Source of the DNA: an uncultured Bacteroidota bacterium
GTDB lineage: Bacteria > Bacteroidota > Bacteroidia > Chitinophagales > Chitinophagaceae
Reading direction: 5' to 3'
NCBI GenBank assembly: GCA_903821465.1
Contig: CAIJLK010000102.1
Coordinates: forward strand, 1-39,751
Length of the DNA: 39,751 nucleotides
Positions 4,013-19,760 of this stretch are shown here, in pieces. The notes beneath the pieces are model-generated. The model did no database searches, was not told where the DNA came from, and was given only the letters and a program-made list of their open reading frames with translations. A program made the translations under genes and the position numbers. Position 1 is the stretch's first letter. The number at the start of each line of letters is the position of its first letter.

Positions 4013-5614
4013 ATGCAAAAAGAAATTAGCCTTAAACTAAAACCTTCGGAAGCTGCCGATAACGAAATTGTCAAAGACTTTATCGCAAAATCAATTGGCC
4101 TTCCCATTGATCAGGTAAGCGGATTTTATCGCAGCAAAGAATCGATCGATGCCAGAAGCAGTAAACAGGTCTGGATCAATTTAAGCCTCAAGGCTTTTAT
4201 CAATGAGCCCTTTGTTCTTCGCCCAACAATTCAAATAGATTTTCGCGATGTTTCTAAGGCTGAGAAAAAAGTTGTGATTGTGGGGGCGGGACCAGCCGGA
4301 CTCTTTGCGGCGCTTCAATTAATTGAGTTGGGTATTCAGCCAATCATTTTAGAAAGAGGTAAAGATGTTCGAGCACGACGAAGAGATCTTGCAATTCTTA
4401 ATCGTGAAGGCATCGTAAATCCTGAAAGTAATTACTGTTTTGGAGAAGGTGGTGCTGGCACTTATAGCGATGGCAAACTCTATACACGTAGTTCTAAACG
4501 TGGTGATATCAATCGCATTTTAAATATTCTTTTTCAATTTGGTGCCGAGGAAAATGTATTGTACGAAGCACATCCACATATTGGCACTAATAAACTACCG
4601 CATATTATAACGGCTATCAGAAAACAAATTGTGGACTGTGGCGGTCAATTCTTATTTGAAAAAAAGGTCACCCGTTTTATCATTGAAGTCAATAGCATCA
4701 AAGCTGTTGAAACAGCCGATGGCAATAGATTTGATGCCCATGCCGTAATTCTTGCAACCGGACATTCTGCCCGCGATATTTTTGAATTATTGCATCGCCA
4801 AAATATTCTGATCGAAGCAAAACCCTTTGCACTTGGAGTTCGGATCGAACACCCACAAGCATTGATCGATCGCATTCAATATCATTGCATCACACGCGAC
4901 GAACATCTTCCACCCGCGAGTTATGGGTTGGTTGAACAGGTGAATGAAAGAGGTGTATTTAGTTTCTGCATGTGCCCCGGAGGGATCATTGCCCCAGCTG
5001 CAACGAGTGAGGGTGAATTAGTTGTAAACGGATGGAGCCCTAGTAAAAGAAATAATCCATTTGCCAATAGTGGCATGGTAGTGCAAGTGGCGATAGAGGA
5101 TGCAATTGTTTATTTCAAAAAAAATAATCCAGATGCAGCTCATTTGCATGATGCTACAAATCCTTTATTACTAATGCATTTTCAGAGGGCAGTAGAACAA
5201 GCCTGTTTTAAAGCCGGCGGGGGAAAATTAGTAGCACCCGCACAACGCATGGTTGATTTTACACGCAACAAATCTTCCATTGATTTACCTGATAATAGTT
5301 ATTTACCCGGCACCATTTCAACTAATCTTTCTGAAGTATTACCTTCTTTTATACATAAAAGTTTGCAAGGAGGCTTCAATGCATTCGGAAAAAAAATGAA
5401 TGGCTATTTAACCAACGACGCAGTAGTGGTTGCAACCGAAAGCAGAACATCATCGCCAGTAAGAATTCCGCGTAATGCAGAAACATTTGCGCATCCTCAA
5501 ATCAAGAACCTCTACCCATGTGGCGAAGGTGCTGGATTTGCTGGAGGTATTGTGAGCGCTGCAATGGACGGAGAAAAATGTGCACAGTTCTGTGCCCTTC
5601 AATTAGTTAATTAA
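4013..5614 (+). CDS. NAD(P)/FAD-dependent oxidoreductase (COG2509-type FAD-dependent dehydrogenase)
   Basis: 533 aa; GAGPAGLFAALQLIELG dinucleotide-binding motif, FGEGGAGTYSDGKLYTR, C-terminal YPCGEGAGFAGGIVSAAMDG. Confidence 0.9.
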   Translation: MQKEISLKLKPSEAADNEIVKDFIAKSIGLPIDQVSGFYRSKESIDARSSKQVWINLSLKAFINEPFVLRPTIQIDFRDVSKAEKKVVIVGAGPAGLFAALQLIELGIQPIILERGKDVRARRRDLAILNREGIVNPESNYCFGEGGAGTYSDGKLYTRSSKRGDINRILNILFQFGAEENVLYEAHPHIGTNKLPHIITAIRKQIVDCGGQFLFEKKVTRFIIEVNSIKAVETADGNRFDAHAVILATGHSARDIFELLHRQNILIEAKPFALGVRIEHPQALIDRIQYHCITRDEHLPPASYGLVEQVNERGVFSFCMCPGGIIAPAATSEGELVVNGWSPSKRNNPFANSGMVVQVAIEDAIVYFKKNNPDAAHLHDATNPLLLMHFQRAVEQACFKAGGGKLVAPAQRMVDFTRNKSSIDLPDNSYLPGTISTNLSEVLPSFIHKSLQGGFNAFGKKMNGYLTNDAVVVATESRTSSPVRIPRNAETFAHPQIKNLYPCGEGAGFAGGIVSAAMDGEKCAQFCALQLVN

Positions 5615-9055: not shown

Positions 9056-10993
9056 CTAATTGACTAGTTTCCAGATAATCCCATCTTTGTTTGTAGAAAA
9101 CTTATGAATGATATTTTTCTGAAACAAGTCAATTAGAATATTTTCAGCCTCAATTAAATTCAAATCAATTAAAAAAGAAAATTCCTTTGTTGTAAGTGTT
9201 GGATACTTTTTAAATAGATTATTGTAATTTTTTTTGATAAGATTTTTTTGAACTCCAGGTATCATTTCTAAAATGATGTTTTCGAACTTTTCATATTCCT
9301 GAAATCCTTTTAAAATTCTAGAGTTATCATATCTATCAGTAAATATAAATGTGGGCAAAACGTTTATGTCTAATTGCTTGGCTAGCTTTAGGTCTTCTTG
9401 AAATAGCTCTTGCGCTTTACCCTCTAGATCTCTCATTAAACGCGCTGCATCTAATCCTGATTCAAAAGCGGCATTATGTATTGGAATATTTCCAACAATA
9501 TTTTTATTCTCAAAAAATAATAACTCATTAATCCTTCTTAGAAAAATAATGGCTTTATCTATGTCCTGCATTTGTGCAGCTTTAAAAGCAATTGAGGGCG
9601 GAAAAGAAGATTCAGGCGGATCTGTATACCAAATATCTGGATAAATTGGCTGATCGTATTTTTCATTTGCCCTTTGCCAATATTCACCCGCATCTTCAGG
9701 TGTTTTAATTCCACCACTTTGAAAATTATCCCAAGACGGCAAAAGCCCACCCATACAATAATCTATTTCTACAAAGTCGCCATATTCGAGTTTTAGTTTT
9801 CGCAATTGCGGTTGTATCACCCAACAAGTTGAGCAAACAGGGTCTGTAAAATAGAGTAAATGAATCCGCTTGTATTTGGGTTTAATTTTGCTCTTGGCCT
9901 GGCGATGCGTGATCAGCGGAACTGTTAATTCATCCTCACTTATCTTTTGGGGATGCAAAAAATTTTGTGCCACTTCTCTTCCAAGAAGTGTATGCTCTTT
10001 TACATCTTCGGCTCGCTCTTTATAAAAATCTATAAATGCTTCCTCATAATTATTTGAACTGATAATTTTCTTAGCTAATATTTTTGCGTCGTTTAATGCA
10101 TTAGTAGTACCAGCGCTAGTAAAAGGCATAGCCAAATGCGCAGCATCACCAATAAGTACTACATTTTTTTTGTGAAAAGTTGGTAACAGATCAAAGTCGG
10201 TTGCATTCCAAACATAACTAGTACTAAAATCATTTAGCCCAATAATTTCATGCACTATCTCCGGAAAATCTTTTAAAAGATAAGTACAAAATTCTCGAAG
10301 TGTATCAGGATTTGAGTCTTTCAATTCTAGTAATTTCACATCAAATTGCATGAACCATACTAATTCTTCATGCGAAGTAGGTATGAATCCAAAGGAAAGC
10401 CCCTTTTCTTGACTCAGATATTTGGTGAAGACATTCGCATATTTAATAGCAATAGTTGGAATTTTCACTACTCCAATGATCTCCTTAACACTAACTTCTG
10501 AGAAGTTCACTTTTCCAAACAAATTAAATCTGACCTGTGAATTTGCGCCATCCGCTCCCACAAAAATATCGCCATATTCTATTTCTCCATTTTGAAATAC
10601 CGCAGCAATGGCTATTTCGTTTTCGTACATGAAATGAGAAAATGTTCTATTTGGCTTAATTAACGTTGCATCAATTTGATTACATAAAAACGCAATCAGG
10701 TCTCTCCTTTTGATACATTGCCAAGGCTCCAGTTTCAAATATTTTATTTCGGTCTCATCAGGTCTTTTTAAAATGAATGTATGGATCAATTCACCCGGAA
10801 TATTATCAATTTCTTTTTTATTTAAAAACATTTGCAAAACCGAAATGCCATCGGAATGCATTAAAAAAGCATTCCCACCCATGGGTACTACTGGTTCTCG
10901 CTCGTTAATAATTACTTGTACCCCACTCTTGTGTAGGATAATACCGAGTGCCATACCTCCAATTCCACCGCCTATAATTACTACTTTCTTCAA
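9056..10993 (-). CDS. FAD-dependent monooxygenase (TetX/PHBH-like class A) fused to a C-terminal DsbA/YjbH-like thioredoxin-fold domain
   Basis: N-terminal half: VVIIGGGIGGMALGIILHKSG, VGADGANSQVR, VVLIGDAAHLAMPFTSAGTTNALNDAKIL. C-terminal half: YFTDPVCSTCWVIQPQLRKL (CxxC encoded at 9824-9835) and cis-Pro-like DINVLPTFIFTD. One uninterrupted 645-codon ORF. Confidence 0.88.
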   Translation of the reverse strand: MKKVVIIGGGIGGMALGIILHKSGVQVIINEREPVVPMGGNAFLMHSDGISVLQMFLNKKEIDNIPGELIHTFILKRPDETEIKYLKLEPWQCIKRRDLIAFLCNQIDATLIKPNRTFSHFMYENEIAIAAVFQNGEIEYGDIFVGADGANSQVRFNLFGKVNFSEVSVKEIIGVVKIPTIAIKYANVFTKYLSQEKGLSFGFIPTSHEELVWFMQFDVKLLELKDSNPDTLREFCTYLLKDFPEIVHEIIGLNDFSTSYVWNATDFDLLPTFHKKNVVLIGDAAHLAMPFTSAGTTNALNDAKILAKKIISSNNYEEAFIDFYKERAEDVKEHTLLGREVAQNFLHPQKISEDELTVPLITHRQAKSKIKPKYKRIHLLYFTDPVCSTCWVIQPQLRKLKLEYGDFVEIDYCMGGLLPSWDNFQSGGIKTPEDAGEYWQRANEKYDQPIYPDIWYTDPPESSFPPSIAFKAAQMQDIDKAIIFLRRINELLFFENKNIVGNIPIHNAAFESGLDAARLMRDLEGKAQELFQEDLKLAKQLDINVLPTFIFTDRYDNSRILKGFQEYEKFENIILEMIPGVQKNLIKKNYNNLFKKYPTLTTKEFSFLIDLNLIEAENILIDLFQKNIIHKFSTNKDGIIWKLVN

Positions 10994-12162
10994 TTGGTAT
11001 CCATTATCTTTTTTATCCTTGCAAATGCATCATTGATAATATCCTCTGATGTTGCAAAACTAATTCTTATATAGCCTTCCGAGCCCTTACCAAACCATTT
11101 ACTCAAGCCTGGCACTACAGCAACTTTGGCTTCAACCAATAATTTTTGTTGAAATGCTTCACTTGAATATCCTGTTCCAACAATACTAGGAAATGCCAAA
11201 TAACATCCTTGCGGCTCAAAACAATTTACTCCTTCAATTGCATTTAAATGATCAACACAAATTCTTTTAACCTTCTCAAGATGTGTAATAAATGCAGTCA
11301 GCCAATAATCACATTCATTTAAAGCTGCCGTGGCCGCGACTTGTGCTAGCACATTACTCCCATGCACGGTTGAGGAATGAAGTGATGCTTTTAATAATAA
11401 ATCGTAATGCGCTTTGTTAGAAGCCATAATGAGTCCAATTCTCAAACCAGCTAATCCGTACGACTTACTAAATCCATGAACTGTTACTGTCTGATTCGCA
11501 ATTTCTTTATTAATTGAAGCGATACTGGTAAACAGATGAGGAGAAAAAACAATATCACTCCATATTTCATCCGACAAAATAATCAATCCATGTTTTACAG
11601 CCAGGTTTCCAATTCCTTCTAACTCCACTTTTGAAAAAACCTTACCACTAGGATTTAATGGGTTACAAAGACAAATCATTTTTGTTCTTGCAGTAATTAA
11701 ATCAGAGAGTTTTTCAATGTCGAGTATTTGATTGGGATCTATCCCTATTGCAAAAGGAATGGCTTTAGCCTGATTGCTTTCAATATTATATTTAAACAGA
11801 AAATCTACTGGATCAAAAATAATTGCCTCATCGCCTTCTTGTAAGAATGCCTTACAAACAGTTGCAATTGCAAAAGCTGCGCTGTCAACCGGAAAAATAT
11901 AATTTGCATCAGCAGCTATTCCCCTTTTCTTATAAAAATAGTTGGCTACACTTTCTTTAAAAAAAGAGTAACCCTCATCTGGGGAATAAGAAAAATATCG
12001 ATCTTTTGAAAATTTGCATATGGCTTCTGCAATTTCAGGTGCACAAGGAAAATCTGGATCAGCAGCAGTTAAAGGAATCACACCATCAGGAACAGATGCC
12101 CACCGCAGATTAAATGCACGAGTTTTAAGAAGGGGTAGATTAATTGAGCTATTAGAAAACAT
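10990..12162 (-). CDS. Class I/II pyridoxal-phosphate aminotransferase (PatB/MalY-like)
   Basis: Fold-type I PLP motifs: LCNPLNPSGKVFS, ILSDEIWSDIVF, HGFSKSYGLAGLRIG. 4-nt overlap with the downstream fusion gene. Confidence 0.88.
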   Translation of the reverse strand: MFSNSSINLPLLKTRAFNLRWASVPDGVIPLTAADPDFPCAPEIAEAICKFSKDRYFSYSPDEGYSFFKESVANYFYKKRGIAADANYIFPVDSAAFAIATVCKAFLQEGDEAIIFDPVDFLFKYNIESNQAKAIPFAIGIDPNQILDIEKLSDLITARTKMICLCNPLNPSGKVFSKVELEGIGNLAVKHGLIILSDEIWSDIVFSPHLFTSIASINKEIANQTVTVHGFSKSYGLAGLRIGLIMASNKAHYDLLLKASLHSSTVHGSNVLAQVAATAALNECDYWLTAFITHLEKVKRICVDHLNAIEGVNCFEPQGCYLAFPSIVGTGYSSEAFQQKLLVEAKVAVVPGLSKWFGKGSEGYIRISFATSEDIINDAFARIKKIMDTN

Positions 12163-12399: not shown

Positions 12400-12460
12400 C
12401 ACTCTTCACTCTTCACTCTTCACTTTTATCTCTTATCTTTTATCTTTTATCTTTTATCTT
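12400..12460 (-). repeat. Heptad repeat locus A: (GATAAAA)n then (GTGAAGA)n, read in sprA sense
   Basis: Plus strand reads CACTCTTCACTCTTCACTCTTCACTTTTATCTCTTATCTTTTATCTTTTATCTTTTATCTTA. It abuts the sprA stop codon (12459-12461). Confidence 0.9.
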
Positions 12461-15400
12461 ATTGTAGTGAGATTCTAATATTAACCCCCGCCCTCGTTGT
12501 TGTCATCGGTGCAGAAGTAGAGATATACGGAATTACTTTACGCTGATCGAAGAAGAACTTGATATTGATTCTGTTATTGATCACATAGTCAACCGCAGGC
12601 TGAATAACAACTTCTTTTTGTCCCCCCGTTCCATAAGCATTACTCTGATCGAGGCGACTATTACTGGTTGCTACATCTCGTACGGATAAATCCAATTTCA
12701 AATTAAGATCATTACTTAACTTCTTACCACTCATGCCCGGTAGTTTAAATGGCAGGTTCACACCCTTCTTGCGCCATGCCCCACCAAATGTCCACTCAGT
12801 ACTCCGGCTTTCACTCAACTGATAATCGATCAAACTCATACTTAGCGTTCTGCTTTTCTTGTATTCGAATTTCAGACTGAGTTTTTTATTGGTGGTTACT
12901 TCAATTCCAAACAAAGGCACAAACTGTTCTTGCATGGTAATATTTGGAACCAGGAAATAAGGAATATAGTTGCCACTTACTGTATCAATAAACGAAGGTG
13001 CACCTAATCTAAACGGATCGCGATAAAGTAATGCACTGGTGTAGCTATTCATACTCAGTGTACCATTGTATCCATGCGTTAAAGTAATGGCACTGAAAAT
13101 AGAAGCCAGGGCTGGTATTTTAGTCAGCCCCGTATAAGTAGCTCTCCAGTTAGGTTTAGGCATAATACCGCTGAATGGATTAGAACGAATATTGGCATTT
13201 GATTGTTGGATCAATCCAATACTCTGCGGATCTTTTCCAGTATACGCTGCAAAGAATGCTGGCAGTATTACATCCTGAGAATATCGTCCATACCCTTTTG
13301 CATATCCATCGGCAGTAAATTTATCACTCGCAGGTAAATTCTGCCAATATGGATTCCCGTTCGCTACCCTACTAGAAATAATAATTCTATTCGCTTCAAA
13401 AGTTTTAAATGTTTCTGATACTTCATTCGGATTATGATTTCCAAATAAGGTATTGAAAGCAATATAAGAAACGCTGAATCCACCTGAGGCCAAAGGATTC
13501 AAATGTTCTGGCCTTCCAAAGCCCGAGGTATCCTTAAACAACTCTGTATACTCTTTCGTAAATGATTTGTCTAAATTAACATCAATTATTAATTCTCTAA
13601 TCGGCTCTATTTGTGCAGTGATACTGAAACGTTGTTCGAAATTCTGACGATATAAATAGTTGAATGTGCTATCTTTTGAAAGTAAGCCTTGACTATATTT
13701 TTTATTCAACCAACTAGTATCGGGCTGACGGCCAAAAACATAATCTAACCCTGGCTGCATACTATTCCAGTTCTGTCCTAACGCTCTACTACTATCCATA
13801 TAACCCGGCACACGACTTCTAAAATTAGCTGAATAATTTACTTGAACAGTCTTCACCATCGTTATCAACTTACCCAGACCTCTTTCGAATCCATTGAGTT
13901 CAATTTGCTGATTGGCTTTTGCCATTCTTTGTGCAGTGCGCTCATCTCTTTTTTGTTGCCTCCATTTCACTAAAGCCTCTTTGCGCAATTTACCAGTTAG
14001 GCCACGCAATGCTTCTTCTTTTGACGGCACCGCATATCCCAAACTATTTTGTTGCGAATTCTTTACGTCGGTGCCTTTTAGCATATCCTTCTTGCCCTTC
14101 GACTTTTTAGCATCGTTAGCATTTGTTGCCGGCTTAGGATTAGACATAGGAATATTATCTATGGCACGTAACCATTTTGACTTCGCATATAAATTGCCAA
14201 AACTAAATTGGGTATTAAAATTATTCTCCTGAGAGTTCTCAATGGCATTTCCCAAATTGATTGCCACACGACTTGCTCCAATCCAGTTATAAGAAGTTGC
14301 ATAACTATACCTGGCGCTGATCCAATCGGTAATAGGTAATTTAGCAAGCGGTATATCCCAATTCAGTGAAGCACGTTGTTGATACAAAGTATTTCTACCC
14401 CCACTAAAGAAATTCCCTCTTAAGCTATCTCTTTTTTCTTTTGAATCAATTCTTCCTGCAGGTTCATCAACACGTGCATTATTAGTGGCAGTAAAATTAA
14501 GATTCAATCTTCTTGCCAAATCCCATTGCATATTATAGAATCGATCGAAAGTAAAATACTTGTCATACGTTGTATCTACCCGCTCTACTTTATTATCATA
14601 AGTATTTACAATTCTCGGAACGTATTCACCAAATTGTCTGTTCACATCGGCTCTGAAACTCAGTAATGAAGGATGCAGATTAAAGTTGAAATCTCTTAGC
14701 CAAGAAAGCCAAGCGGTCTTAGACTTAATTAATTTTTTTAATGGTTCAACATATTTACTCTGGCCAATATAAGTATATCCCAAACCCCCACGATGTCGCG
14801 TGATCTTGTTTTCCATGATCACCGGACTCGTTTGTTCAGTTTGAGTATAGGAATAACTAAGATCAAAATTACTCAGCTTCAACAAACCCGTTTTAGTGCC
14901 AGTAGGTGCCACACGCACATTAGTAAAGTTGATGGTCTTAATGGTAGTCCGATCTGCTGCTGCATTTTTTATAGAGTCGCGCTTTGTAGGCATACTCAAC
15001 AACTTCTCAGCATAAAGTACGTCCTTATCAAAAGGGTCGTATTGCGGTGTGCGTAAAGTCTGACTAATACTGGCATACACCGGCATACTCAACTTCGCTT
15101 GCTTTGGCAATAACTTTCCTGCATTAATGCTGGCGGCTGCATCGAACTGTACTAAATTATCTCTCGCTCTTTCATTCACCCGTTGTTCAATGGTACCAAA
15201 ACCTTGGGTATGTGTATTGGCAGAAACAGAAACTGTTCCCAAATCTGCAAGGGTAAAATCAACCCTTCCTAATGCAGCCCATCCACCACGTTCATCAATT
15301 TCAGACAATCGTAATTCATTGACCCAAACTTCTGTATTTTGAATCGGCCCATCTGCTTTATAGGGGTTCTCAATTGCAATTAAAAATCCACGTACTTCGC

Positions 15401-18400
15401 CCAAGTTGGGATTACCCATGATGGAATAAGTCTTGTTTCCTAGAACTTCCCGATAAATATTATTCATCGGGAACCCAACCGTATTTCTTTTGAGTTTCAA
15501 ATCGATCAAATCACGAAGACTAAAGTCCAGATTGTTTTCCGCAGGCCAAATTGCTAACTCTTGCCCCTTGGCATAAGTACCAGGAGGCGTTATATTCAAT
15601 GGTATTTTAATTTCATAATAGTTGTTCAAGAAATCCTGACCAATTCTTATTACCGCATTGATTTCTCCATTCTTAATTGGTCTTTGACCAGTAACTGATT
15701 CGGCATGGATAAACATAGATAGTTTTCCAAACTGACGCATATCCAAATTCATGCTTTTAAAAATAGCACGTGCATCCCCAGAAAATAAATTGCGTGCCTG
15801 CAAACTAATACTCTGTTCGTTCTGTAAAAGATTCACCCCATTATTACTCAATTGCTGCACACGCTCAATGCCTGGAGGAATTAAATAATTCACGGGTTGT
15901 CTGCTACTATTCTCTTCTAAGTTTACTGACAAAGTATTGAATGTAGTTCCATTCGAATTATTAATGGGCGAGTAACTACCTGTAGTATCTAAATTATAAG
16001 TAAACTGACGCCATTGATTTCTAACTAAGTTCAAACTTGCAAAACGTAACACAACGGAATCATCAAAATCTGTCAAATACATTCTTGCAAAACGAATGGA
16101 TTTAAAATCAGGAATGCCTCCCACTCTGTTACTATAATCCTTAATCGGCACTCTGAATAAATACCAATCTTCCTGACGAACAATTCCATCAGCAGAATTT
16201 ACGGTCACACGTTTTTTATCCGTGATATATTTTGTTACCCCTACATCCATGCCTGGTTTCAGATCGATCTGGTATTCGTAGTAGGCTTCTGTTTCGTTTA
16301 AAGTATTATCTCTATTTAGATCTTCATTGTCTGGATATAATGTTGCAGCAGATGTAAACAATCCATTGGTAGTAGCAATAGGTGAATTGCCCTGCGGATT
16401 ATTGAAGTTTTTGTATCGGCCTAAGATACCAGTACCAGCAGCATCAAAGCTTGGATCGCGATACCATTTATAATCATCGTTTGAAGGATCACTCAATGTT
16501 TTCTGATAAATTGGTGAGCTAGTTCCAAAATTGTTAGCAATACGATTTAGGATATATCCTTTCTTTCTTACTTCACCATCATTATCCAATCCATCTAAAC
16601 CTACATCCTGAAATGGTCGATCAGCCGGATCATTACTAAATGCTTGTGTAATTTGAATCGGATTCACAGGTGTCTTACCCCAAGTATTGCTACTATCAAC
16701 TGCTGCATTAATATTCGGTGTGTTCATTCCATTCTCATAGAATCTTTTTCCATCTTTTAAAATGTCTTCACTCACATTACCGAAGTTCAAGAGCAATTTA
16801 CCACCTTTGCTAGTAGGAGTTTTGATAAATGGATTTTGCACCCAGAATTCAACAAACTCAACATTACCAGTTTCGAAATCGGTTTGGTCAATCGCTCGCA
16901 TTACGCCACCCCATCTACTTGCAGGATTTGATAATTTTCCGTTGGCATCAATAGCTGTTTTTCTTGTTTCGAAATTGTATGGGCCTTTCTCCATTGGATA
17001 AAAAGCTAAATCAAAAGTCGATGCCTGAACATCCGTGATATTGGTTGTACGTTGCGGAAATAATTCGTTTGTGTATACCTGTCTAACTCTCGGATCACTT
17101 AACTCTGCAAGGTTATGACGCATTGGGTTATTCGGACTATTCTTATCCTGCAAATTGGGTTCGATATTATACCATGCCAATTTTGCACGATTAAAATTAT
17201 AATCGATTGAATCGTTCAAGATTGCTTCAGGAAATTTTGGATTACCCTGCGGAGTAGAAGCAAGTGCCCATGCAACAAAGGGGAAACGTAAATCAATACT
17301 CGTTTTAGAAGACTCAAAATCATCGATATAAACTAATCCCTGATCGCCCTTTCCAATTTGCGGCGGATGTCCGGGTTGTAAATATGCAGCTTCACCATAG
17401 GCAGTTACAAATGATTTGGCTTTAGTTGAGTAGTTAGGTAAACGATTTAGGAATCTGGTTAAGCCAGGCAATTCAGATTTATAGCTAAAGTCTAAACCAT
17501 ACATGGTATTTCTAATCGGATCTTCTCCATATCCCATTTTGGTAAAAAATGGCCGCTCACTTAATCGCATAACTGAAGTACCAATAGCGAATTTTTTACT
17601 AGCGATATAATCTAAACGCAATGCGGCAAAGCCACGCTGCTGCATGCCGAATCCAGAATTGTTTTCAAATGCAACTTTTACCGGAACATTAGAACTGAGT
17701 ATCGCCTGATTTAAGATCTTAACTGTACCCAAATTATAATCAACCACATAATCAGAACCTTCACGAAGAATTTGTCCCCCCGCAGTTACTGATACAGAAC
17801 CGGGTGGCACATTAAATGTGTTCAACGAAATTTCAGAACCTCCCGTGCTCTTCACAGTTCCCTGCATCATAAAACGATTCAAATTCATATAAGTCTGCGC
17901 AATAGCTTTAATAGAATCGTATAGGGCATAAAAAATATACTTCTTCTTTGTAGCTGCAGGCATTCCTGCAAATGCCAATGCTTCTAAGTCTCTACCAAAA
18001 GGTTCGAGTACAGGAAATACAACCCTACCTAATTGTGGAAGAATGGTATATCCTTCCACATAGTCAAATACCCCATCTGGTTGCGGATCGTTTCTACTAT
18101 TTAATCGATCTAAGTTTAAGATTTTTAAGAGCGGCTGACCATTTACGGCAGGTGCTGTTTCGGGTAAATATCTTTTCAATCCACCACTCGGCTCTTCATA
18201 TAAAACGTTTAAATTAAAACCCTCACGCTGAATTCCTCCGAACATATCAAGCGAATAAACGTTCTTCATCATCAAGCCCCATAAAGGCAATTGAATTCTT
18301 TGTGAGGTAGCTTTCAATAATTTTAACATCAAAACTTTCTGTACACCTTTAGTTGAATCTAAAGCAACGTCCTGCGAAAATTCACCCACCTGAAAAACCT

Positions 18401-19760
18401 TTCCATTATAAGTGTACTGATATGCAACTGCCAAAACTTCATCCGATTGCAACTGACTATTTACAGAAAGAAAACCCACTTGCGGGTTAAAATAATATTC
18501 GTTGGTAGTTAGTTTTCTAGCAAATGTTTTTTCATAATCATCAACAGGTCTTAGTCCCCTTGCAGTCAACAAACTATTGATCTGTGAAGGATTTCTTGCA
18601 CTCGGATTATTTACTAAAGAACTATACAAATTATTCGCGCCGTTAAAAGGCAATGGGTTGCCTGTGTTAGATTGGATCAGGGGGTTATACGGACTAGGCT
18701 CGCCCAAATCCATAAATCCCACAATGTCGCGCGCATCTGTTGTTGCGCCATTACGATTAGTTACCCATACTTCAATACGTTGAATCGTTGCCATTGAATT
18801 TACCACAGGCAGGTTCTTCATTGCTTTATTGAAATTATTTCTAAAGAACTGGGCTAACAAAAAGTGTCTGTTCTCTTCATAATCATCCAATCTTTTTTGA
18901 AAAGATTGGGTAGCTGCTCCACCCTGTAAACCGATTGATTGTTTTTGCGAACGTTGATTGGCAAGCGCACCGGTGATAAATAATTTACCGAATTGCAATT
19001 GTGCTTTAATACCAAATAAATTCTGTGTACTAGGAATTAATGTTCCTTTTGATTGATAAGAAATATTACCTGCTTCAATACTCTTGATCACTTCATCATC
19101 TTTACCCTTATAATCAAGTTTGATCTGATTATCAAATCCTAGATTCGATTGAGTATTATAGTTGAGGGGGAATTTTAGCTTATCGCCGATAATTGCATTC
19201 ACTGCAATATTCGCATTCATGTCGAAATCGAATCCTCCGTTTTTACGAGCTCTTTCGGGAAGTGTTGGGTTCTTGATATTTTGTCCCTGATAACCCGCCA
19301 TCACATTTACTTCACCACTTGGTCTGATATCAACTTTCATTCCTTTGTCGGTCACACCAAAAATCCGATCAAATAAACTGGTATGTACTTTCATTGGCGG
19401 ACGCTTGGTCTTTTCGTTCAACACCGAAAGCATATCCGCACGCTTTTTGAAATATTCCGTTTCTGCTTTTCTTGATTTTATTTTCCAAAACTCATCAAAA
19501 CTTAAAGTGGTTGGAGTTCGATAAATCTTCCCTGCAATTTTCTCAACAATTACATAATGCTGGGTCTTTGCATCATACTCAATGGTCTGTTTTATTAAAC
19601 TAGTATCTCTGATTGCAAAAGGATTGCTGGAGGAAGTAGAGAAGGCATCAGATCTTCTGTCGGTTATAGCATAGTGAACACTATCCTTTTTTTGGGCATT
19701 CAAAGGAATACCGCAAAACAGGAATAGTTGAACAGCCATTACAGTTGCTAAAAACTTCAA
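12459..19760 (-). CDS. sprA: Cell surface protein SprA (type IX secretion system outer-membrane translocon)
   Basis: 2433-aa secreted protein. Recognisable SprA segments include YQGQNIKNPTLPERARKNGGFDFDMNANIAVNAIIGDKLKFPLNYNTQSNLGFDNQIKLDYKG, plus size and a neighbouring ruvA. Confidence 0.96.
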   Translation of the reverse strand: MKFLATVMAVQLFLFCGIPLNAQKKDSVHYAITDRRSDAFSTSSSNPFAIRDTSLIKQTIEYDAKTQHYVIVEKIAGKIYRTPTTLSFDEFWKIKSRKAETEYFKKRADMLSVLNEKTKRPPMKVHTSLFDRIFGVTDKGMKVDIRPSGEVNVMAGYQGQNIKNPTLPERARKNGGFDFDMNANIAVNAIIGDKLKFPLNYNTQSNLGFDNQIKLDYKGKDDEVIKSIEAGNISYQSKGTLIPSTQNLFGIKAQLQFGKLFITGALANQRSQKQSIGLQGGAATQSFQKRLDDYEENRHFLLAQFFRNNFNKAMKNLPVVNSMATIQRIEVWVTNRNGATTDARDIVGFMDLGEPSPYNPLIQSNTGNPLPFNGANNLYSSLVNNPSARNPSQINSLLTARGLRPVDDYEKTFARKLTTNEYYFNPQVGFLSVNSQLQSDEVLAVAYQYTYNGKVFQVGEFSQDVALDSTKGVQKVLMLKLLKATSQRIQLPLWGLMMKNVYSLDMFGGIQREGFNLNVLYEEPSGGLKRYLPETAPAVNGQPLLKILNLDRLNSRNDPQPDGVFDYVEGYTILPQLGRVVFPVLEPFGRDLEALAFAGMPAATKKKYIFYALYDSIKAIAQTYMNLNRFMMQGTVKSTGGSEISLNTFNVPPGSVSVTAGGQILREGSDYVVDYNLGTVKILNQAILSSNVPVKVAFENNSGFGMQQRGFAALRLDYIASKKFAIGTSVMRLSERPFFTKMGYGEDPIRNTMYGLDFSYKSELPGLTRFLNRLPNYSTKAKSFVTAYGEAAYLQPGHPPQIGKGDQGLVYIDDFESSKTSIDLRFPFVAWALASTPQGNPKFPEAILNDSIDYNFNRAKLAWYNIEPNLQDKNSPNNPMRHNLAELSDPRVRQVYTNELFPQRTTNITDVQASTFDLAFYPMEKGPYNFETRKTAIDANGKLSNPASRWGGVMRAIDQTDFETGNVEFVEFWVQNPFIKTPTSKGGKLLLNFGNVSEDILKDGKRFYENGMNTPNINAAVDSSNTWGKTPVNPIQITQAFSNDPADRPFQDVGLDGLDNDGEVRKKGYILNRIANNFGTSSPIYQKTLSDPSNDDYKWYRDPSFDAAGTGILGRYKNFNNPQGNSPIATTNGLFTSAATLYPDNEDLNRDNTLNETEAYYEYQIDLKPGMDVGVTKYITDKKRVTVNSADGIVRQEDWYLFRVPIKDYSNRVGGIPDFKSIRFARMYLTDFDDSVVLRFASLNLVRNQWRQFTYNLDTTGSYSPINNSNGTTFNTLSVNLEENSSRQPVNYLIPPGIERVQQLSNNGVNLLQNEQSISLQARNLFSGDARAIFKSMNLDMRQFGKLSMFIHAESVTGQRPIKNGEINAVIRIGQDFLNNYYEIKIPLNITPPGTYAKGQELAIWPAENNLDFSLRDLIDLKLKRNTVGFPMNNIYREVLGNKTYSIMGNPNLGEVRGFLIAIENPYKADGPIQNTEVWVNELRLSEIDERGGWAALGRVDFTLADLGTVSVSANTHTQGFGTIEQRVNERARDNLVQFDAAASINAGKLLPKQAKLSMPVYASISQTLRTPQYDPFDKDVLYAEKLLSMPTKRDSIKNAAADRTTIKTINFTNVRVAPTGTKTGLLKLSNFDLSYSYTQTEQTSPVIMENKITRHRGGLGYTYIGQSKYVEPLKKLIKSKTAWLSWLRDFNFNLHPSLLSFRADVNRQFGEYVPRIVNTYDNKVERVDTTYDKYFTFDRFYNMQWDLARRLNLNFTATNNARVDEPAGRIDSKEKRDSLRGNFFSGGRNTLYQQRASLNWDIPLAKLPITDWISARYSYATSYNWIGASRVAINLGNAIENSQENNFNTQFSFGNLYAKSKWLRAIDNIPMSNPKPATNANDAKKSKGKKDMLKGTDVKNSQQNSLGYAVPSKEEALRGLTGKLRKEALVKWRQQKRDERTAQRMAKANQQIELNGFERGLGKLITMVKTVQVNYSANFRSRVPGYMDSSRALGQNWNSMQPGLDYVFGRQPDTSWLNKKYSQGLLSKDSTFNYLYRQNFEQRFSITAQIEPIRELIIDVNLDKSFTKEYTELFKDTSGFGRPEHLNPLASGGFSVSYIAFNTLFGNHNPNEVSETFKTFEANRIIISSRVANGNPYWQNLPASDKFTADGYAKGYGRYSQDVILPAFFAAYTGKDPQSIGLIQQSNANIRSNPFSGIMPKPNWRATYTGLTKIPALASIFSAITLTHGYNGTLSMNSYTSALLYRDPFRLGAPSFIDTVSGNYIPYFLVPNITMQEQFVPLFGIEVTTNKKLSLKFEYKKSRTLSMSLIDYQLSESRSTEWTFGGAWRKKGVNLPFKLPGMSGKKLSNDLNLKLDLSVRDVATSNSRLDQSNAYGTGGQKEVVIQPAVDYVINNRINIKFFFDQRKVIPYISTSAPMTTTRAGVNIRISLQ

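Follow-up and report, generated by a model that had tools for sequence, protein, structure and literature searches.

The stretch of DNA analysed here (the window, 39,751 nucleotides from an uncultured member of the Chitinophagaceae) carries on its minus strand a gene whose product joins a predicted class A flavin monooxygenase to a YjbH/SpxH-type domain. Directly upstream, overlapping it by four bases, lies the gene for a predicted PLP enzyme. The features of the two genes are as follows.

9056 to 10993, minus strand: fusion gene, class A flavin monooxygenase plus YjbH/SpxH domain as assigned by Pfam, AlphaFold2, Foldseek and about 60 related fusions; 645 amino acids, TTG start
9899 to 10993, minus strand: monooxygenase domain, residues 1-365 (FAD_binding_3; Foldseek matches to HpxO, PhzS, TetX and TrlE)
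10955 to 10972, minus strand: GGGIGG dinucleotide-binding motif, residues 8-13 (G8, G10 and G13 invariant in alignment A3)
10547 to 10552, minus strand: DG motif, residues 148-149 (D148 and G149 invariant in alignment A3)
10136 to 10150, minus strand: GD motif GDAAH, residues 282-286 (G282, D283, A285 and H286 invariant in alignment A3)
9872 to 9898, minus strand: inter-domain linker, residues 366-374 (pLDDT below 50 at 366-373)
9269 to 9871, minus strand: thioredoxin-fold part of the YjbH domain, residues 375-575 (Thioredoxin_5; alignment with 6ghb)
9824 to 9835, minus strand: CSTC active-site motif, residues 387-390 (Cys387 in 61 of 61 fusions, Cys390 in 58 of 61)
9353 to 9355, minus strand: Pro547 of the predicted cis-Pro loop (LPT, residues 546-548; the proline and the threonine after it invariant in 61 of 61 fusions)
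9059 to 9268, minus strand: small C-terminal domain of YjbH, residues 576-645 (alignment with the 6ghb chain up to its residue 293; the least conserved part)
10990 to 10993, minus strand: TTGA, four-base overlap of the partner's stop and the fusion's start (from the sequence; equal spacing in 39 loci)
10990 to 12162, minus strand: partner gene, predicted fold-type-I PLP enzyme (aminotransferase/C-S-lyase-like), 390 amino acids (Aminotran_1_2; adjoins the monooxygenase in nearly all loci)
11464 to 11466, minus strand: Lys233 of the partner, predicted PLP Schiff-base lysine in SKS (S232 and K233 invariant in alignment A4)

The Pfam model FAD_binding_3 covers residues 3-333 of the fusion at 69.6 bits (cut-off 22), and this match and the conserved GxGxxG, DG and GD motifs assign the N-terminal half to the class A flavoprotein monooxygenases, as a preliminary description of this DNA had proposed. 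Thioredoxin_5 matches residues 381-571 at 141.3 bits (cut-off 27), whereas the DSBA model (PF01323) reaches 24.5 bits, just below its gathering cut-off of 25.6, and so marks a related fold only. The complete DsbA-family domain of the preliminary description is borne out by Thioredoxin_5, CSTC and the cis-Pro loop, but not by the DSBA model itself. Because the FAD fold begins at residue 3, there is no room for a signal peptide, and the fusion protein with its thiol domain is expected to be cytosolic, which agrees with the location first suggested. The TTG start is plausible since the same −4 spacing recurs in 39 related loci.

A domain-architecture search and a structure prediction had been suggested at the outset; the former found both domains, and an AlphaFold2 model built from 57 aligned relatives (mean pLDDT 91.2, pTM 0.84) shows both modelled confidently, with only the linker at 366-373 below 50. 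With Foldseek and TM scores normalised by target length, the monooxygenase domain model resembles HpxO, PhzS, TetX and TrlE (about 0.8), and the C-terminal domain model resembles the Geobacillus YjbH crystallised with Spx (6ghb/6gho; 0.90). At the level of sequence, residues 377-644 match 6ghb over 268 residues with E 2.7e-33, and because the match spans this whole region, the C-terminal tail can be taken as part of the YjbH architecture. Alignment and model together thus identify the C-terminal half as a full-length YjbH/SpxH homologue that includes the small C-terminal domain, a closer definition than DsbA-like and one that upholds the earlier description of a YjbH/SpxH-like thiol domain with CSTC and cis-Pro.

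YjbH/SpxH is a protease adaptor in Firmicutes. The importance of its redox-type active site is disputed: the cysteines are needed in Listeria, whereas B. subtilis and S. aureus can degrade Spx without them, and S. aureus YjbH is without the CxxC (PMC7253607). This active-site CxxC, held by many but not all members of the family, is present in the window fusion as CSTC. The whole of YjbH/SpxH from Geobacillus (GK0824, PDB 6ghb/6gho), Listeria and Bacillus aligns with the fused domain, CxxC and cis-Pro included; here, however, it is fused behind a monooxygenase and adjoins a PLP enzyme, and nothing found here supports Spx binding.

We collected 61 complete fusions, of which the window is one and two are copies of one contig. 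Cys387 is invariant in all of them, and the three that depart from Cys390 have Ser or Ala in its place. Moreover, the thioredoxin part is better conserved than the monooxygenase, with mean column entropies of 1.30 and 1.53, respectively, and 2.07 for the tail. Two cysteines of the monooxygenase are typical of the clade, C93 (60/61 fusions) and C236 (57/61). C236 is missing in never-fused relatives, yet it is retained after later YjbH loss, which weakens it as a candidate partner thiol.

Small class A monooxygenases (HpxO, PhzS, TrlE, TetX and NicC) share with the fusion the FAD_binding_3 fold and the GxGxxG, DG and GD motifs; the fusion differs in falling under every family cut-off (HpxO, 122 of 500) and in its extra YjbH domain. 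Residues 290-300 of the monooxygenase (10094-10126) read PFTSAGTTNAL, and PFTSQG is the counterpart of PFTSAG in more distant relatives that likewise pair with a PLP enzyme. Most class A monooxygenases carry a GQG-type loop at this position. The domain-III enzymes, such as phenol hydroxylase and GrhO5, likewise have a thioredoxin-fold domain behind a class A monooxygenase, but their domain III, which in GrhO5 and many others has no catalytic Cys (PMC9299503), belongs to a family different from the fusion's domain with its conserved CxxC, and Pfam gave no Phe_hydrox_dim (domain III) match to the fusion at E 0.001. The preliminary description had not recognised the architecture as described, and we likewise found no description of it in the open-access literature searched.

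About 60 other loci encode both domains in the same order, which confirms that the two-domain observation is real and far beyond chance. A mis-assembled junction is thereby rejected, as is the concern voiced at the outset that close relatives might lack the fusion, since the roughly 60 loci lie in Bacteroidota. When the monooxygenase part was used to scan one genome per species for 84,980 species, it returned 73 loci in Bacteroidota and two in Planctomycetota. The fusion is a widespread, uncharacterised joining of known families in many Bacteroidota, and its occurrence is patchy (2/396 sampled genomes of the phylum and 7/150 of the window's family).

Where the contig extends far enough, a PLP gene almost always adjoins the monooxygenase, with the exact 4-base overlap in 39 pairs; two sister fusions (L060 and L162) are without an adjoining PLP gene. 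The genome that holds L162 (G657) has, besides this fusion, a separate monooxygenase-PLP pair (L158) and a stand-alone YjbH. Divergence of the monooxygenase correlates with that of the PLP enzyme over 96 loci (r 0.94) and within 63 fusions (r 0.80, with 0/2000 permutations as high), a co-variation that partly reflects shared ancestry. Four genomes from the family of the window also carry the pair with no YjbH fused to it, as do one genus (g18) of another Bacteroidota family (f4) and 9/10 Planctomycetota loci examined, where the monooxygenase gene precedes the PLP gene. The PLP enzyme and the small class A monooxygenase are therefore a conserved pair in Bacteroidota and Planctomycetota, and YjbH is an addition to this broader core. 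Of the system as first pictured, YjbH and the cytosolic setting hold, but the PLP partner and the wider core had been left out.

In several Planctomycetota (L185 and L187-L190), the PLP gene is flanked on its other side by a further, diverged monooxygenase paralogue. At about 23 loci (e.g. L029:5894-7797, L031, L041 and L067), genes for a PAS histidine kinase and a lone receiver domain lie upstream of the PLP-monooxygenase pair in the same orientation; the window has neither.

The monooxygenase tree places all fusions in one clade (SH-aLRT 99), inside which YjbH was later lost several times, in Pedobacter, Spirosoma and others. A search at E 1e-20 found no YjbH in six Pedobacter genomes, and YjbH appears dispensable in some lineages because it was lost repeatedly while the pair stayed. 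The YjbH tree separates the fused domains, as one group, from the stand-alone proteins (SH-aLRT 99). Five g18 genomes have a stand-alone YjbH gene immediately upstream of the monooxygenase-PLP pair, and these operon genes form their own clade (SH-aLRT 100) within the stand-alone lineage. Given this separate descent, YjbH has been joined to the pair twice.

The slot upstream of the pair in g18 (L125-L139, L099 and L100) holds either a tryptophanase or YjbH, never both in the sampled genomes: the six sampled genomes with tryptophanase in the slot have no YjbH, and the six searched without tryptophanase have it. Tryptophanase was set aside as a pathway partner: it adjoins the pair in one clade of one genus, in genomes without YjbH, and as the alternation may stem from a single swap, it is a hint only.

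Stand-alone Bacteroidota YjbH-like proteins, annotated as ClpXP adapter SpxH family, are about 45-50% identical to the fused YjbH part and tail but form a separate clade and have an N-terminal NPLLC[DN]xxxGxC segment that is absent in the fusions. This two-cysteine segment (L101-L112, L147-L156 and L164-L169) follows a lipobox-like stretch in several of them, so some may be lipoproteins. The stand-alone genes often lie beside HxlR-type regulators (L101-L108, L110 and L165-L169), and some beside DoxX, YceI-like or glyoxalase-fold dioxygenase/esterase genes. The HxlR, DoxX and dioxygenase/esterase setting is associated with quinone and electrophile stress.

The PLP partner matches Aminotran_1_2 at 170.2 bits (cut-off 19.7) and, by sequence, is a member of the class I aminotransferase superfamily, within which it may be a transaminase or a lyase. 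It scores well under the cut-offs of its best-matching family models (PRK07682, 221 of 620; GntC, 203 of 415) and of the PatB C-S lyase model TIGR04350 (212.5 against 340). The solved structures closest to it are archaeal aromatic/aspartate aminotransferases, which rank first in the profile search, a putative clostridial aminotransferase and PatB-type C-S lyases; 6qp3, 9k71 and 3l8a are among the top structures. With both the PatB/MalY C-S lyases and the class I aminotransferases it shares the features of a fold-type-I PLP enzyme and invariant K233, D198, N170 and R366, and it differs from both in being intermediate between them and in an invariant Trp201.

Building on these observations, we tentatively favor, at a little under an even chance, a two-gene pathway in which the PLP enzyme and the monooxygenase act in sequence and YjbH serves as a dedicated thiol-redox module. 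One small molecule, most likely an amino-acid-derived aromatic, would be handled by both enzymes in turn, in cytosolic chemistry that draws on FAD, NAD(P)H and O2. The target of Cys387 would be a disulfide, sulfenate or thiol adduct carried by the monooxygenase (Cys93 and Cys236 are candidates) or by a reactive product, and Cys390 would resolve it; the YjbH thiol-disulfide module could thereby protect or control oxygenation. This reading is suggested by the roughly 60 fusions with a PLP gene directly upstream, by the recurrence of the pair, minus the fused YjbH, in Planctomycetota and in other clades, and by the correlated divergence of the two enzymes. It is also suggested by the two separate associations of YjbH with the pair, by the conservation of Cys387, Cys390 and Pro547, by the confident models of both domains, and by the HxlR, DoxX and dioxygenase/esterase neighbors of the stand-alone relatives of YjbH. 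Weighing against it are the scores of the PLP enzyme, which lie below every family cut-off, the dispensability of YjbH in some lineages, the two fusions without an adjoining PLP gene, the persistence of Cys236 after YjbH loss, and the share of ancestry in the co-variation of neighbors.

It is possible, but rather unlikely, that the YjbH part instead binds proteins as SpxH does for ClpXP, recruiting an ArsC/Spx-like client or the PLP enzyme or governing monooxygenase turnover, with the cysteines at most redox sensors. The full-length similarity to YjbH, C-terminal domain included, fits such an adaptor, as does the finding that B. subtilis and S. aureus do not require the cysteines to degrade Spx. 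Moreover, the window's genome encodes an ArsC-family protein above the TIGR01617 Spx/MgsR cut-off (95.4 against 75.05), the only Spx-like candidate found there. However, ArsC-family proteins are also found in genomes without YjbH (G266 and G588), and an adaptor fused to a metabolic enzyme would be an unusual design. The invariance of Cys387 and near-invariance of Cys390 likewise contrast with the S. aureus protein that has no CxxC, and the motif is needed in Listeria (PMC7253607).

A further version of the pathway, to which we give about one chance in a handful, is a self-contained one: from an amino acid processed by the PLP enzyme, the monooxygenase would form a product or intermediate that reacts with thiols, and its own YjbH domain would receive it. 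If so, YjbH proteins, at least those of Bacteroidota, would work alongside oxygenases and in electrophile chemistry, and acting as an adaptor for Spx would be one special case of the family.

We consider it improbable that the YjbH domain stands outside the main chemistry as a guard, removing H2O2 from uncoupled flavin turnover or repairing oxidized monooxygenase cysteines. In the larger class A monooxygenases a catalytic Cys in domain III, which GrhO5 and many others lack, enables H2O2 breakdown with DTT (PMC9299503), and the CxxC is conserved in the fusions, but the YjbH family is not that of domain III and no YjbH peroxidase activity was found in the literature examined. Equally improbable is a sulfur pathway that makes or degrades a thiol compound, in which the PLP enzyme would be a C-S beta-lyase freeing a thiol from a cysteine conjugate, the monooxygenase would oxidize that thiol on ring or sulfur, and YjbH would make or break a disulfide. 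This would combine all three activities and would suit the PatB/MalY-like features and near neighbors of the PLP enzyme; however, its TIGR04350 score is far under the cut-off, archaeal aminotransferases come first in the profile search, and no sulfur gene recurs nearby. The tetracycline modification raised in the preliminary description, or inactivation of a similar drug, is rejected as very improbable: the fold is common to TetX and Tet(51) (Foldseek), but tet_destruct (NF033476) scores 60.5 bits against a cut-off of 550, HpxO and other models score higher, the PLP partner is conserved, and the monooxygenase part matched no plasmid record. Of the other roles raised there, thiol-dependent redox control or a two-step chemistry may apply, but nothing points to a bacillithiol-like cofactor.

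Under the two-gene pathway with a YjbH redox module, the finding points to a widespread, uncharacterized two-enzyme pathway in Bacteroidota and Planctomycetota. YjbH is tied to one monooxygenase-PLP pair twice, by fusion and by gene order, with its cysteines kept, and the fusion system offers a concrete case in which a catalytic redox role of YjbH can be tested.

Other origins were considered and set aside. For a defense system, PADLOC gave a single trivial match, to the FAD fold; for phage origin, the fusion has no PHROGs family; and for a plasmid cassette, plasmids carry relatives of the YjbH part only (E 1e-25). A large biosynthetic cluster was likewise rejected, as the 2433-aa upstream ORF is SprA and the only recurrent extra neighbors are the PAS kinase and receiver domain. 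This ORF (12459-19760) encodes the outer-membrane translocon of type IX secretion, SprA/Sov (TIGR04189, 2383 bits), and the gap between sprA and the PLP gene (12400-12460) holds short tandem repeats of the 7-base unit CTTTTAT and variants. At 4013-5614, 3.4 kb from the fusion, lies the gene for another FAD protein, an unrelated one of the FAD-depend_C family.
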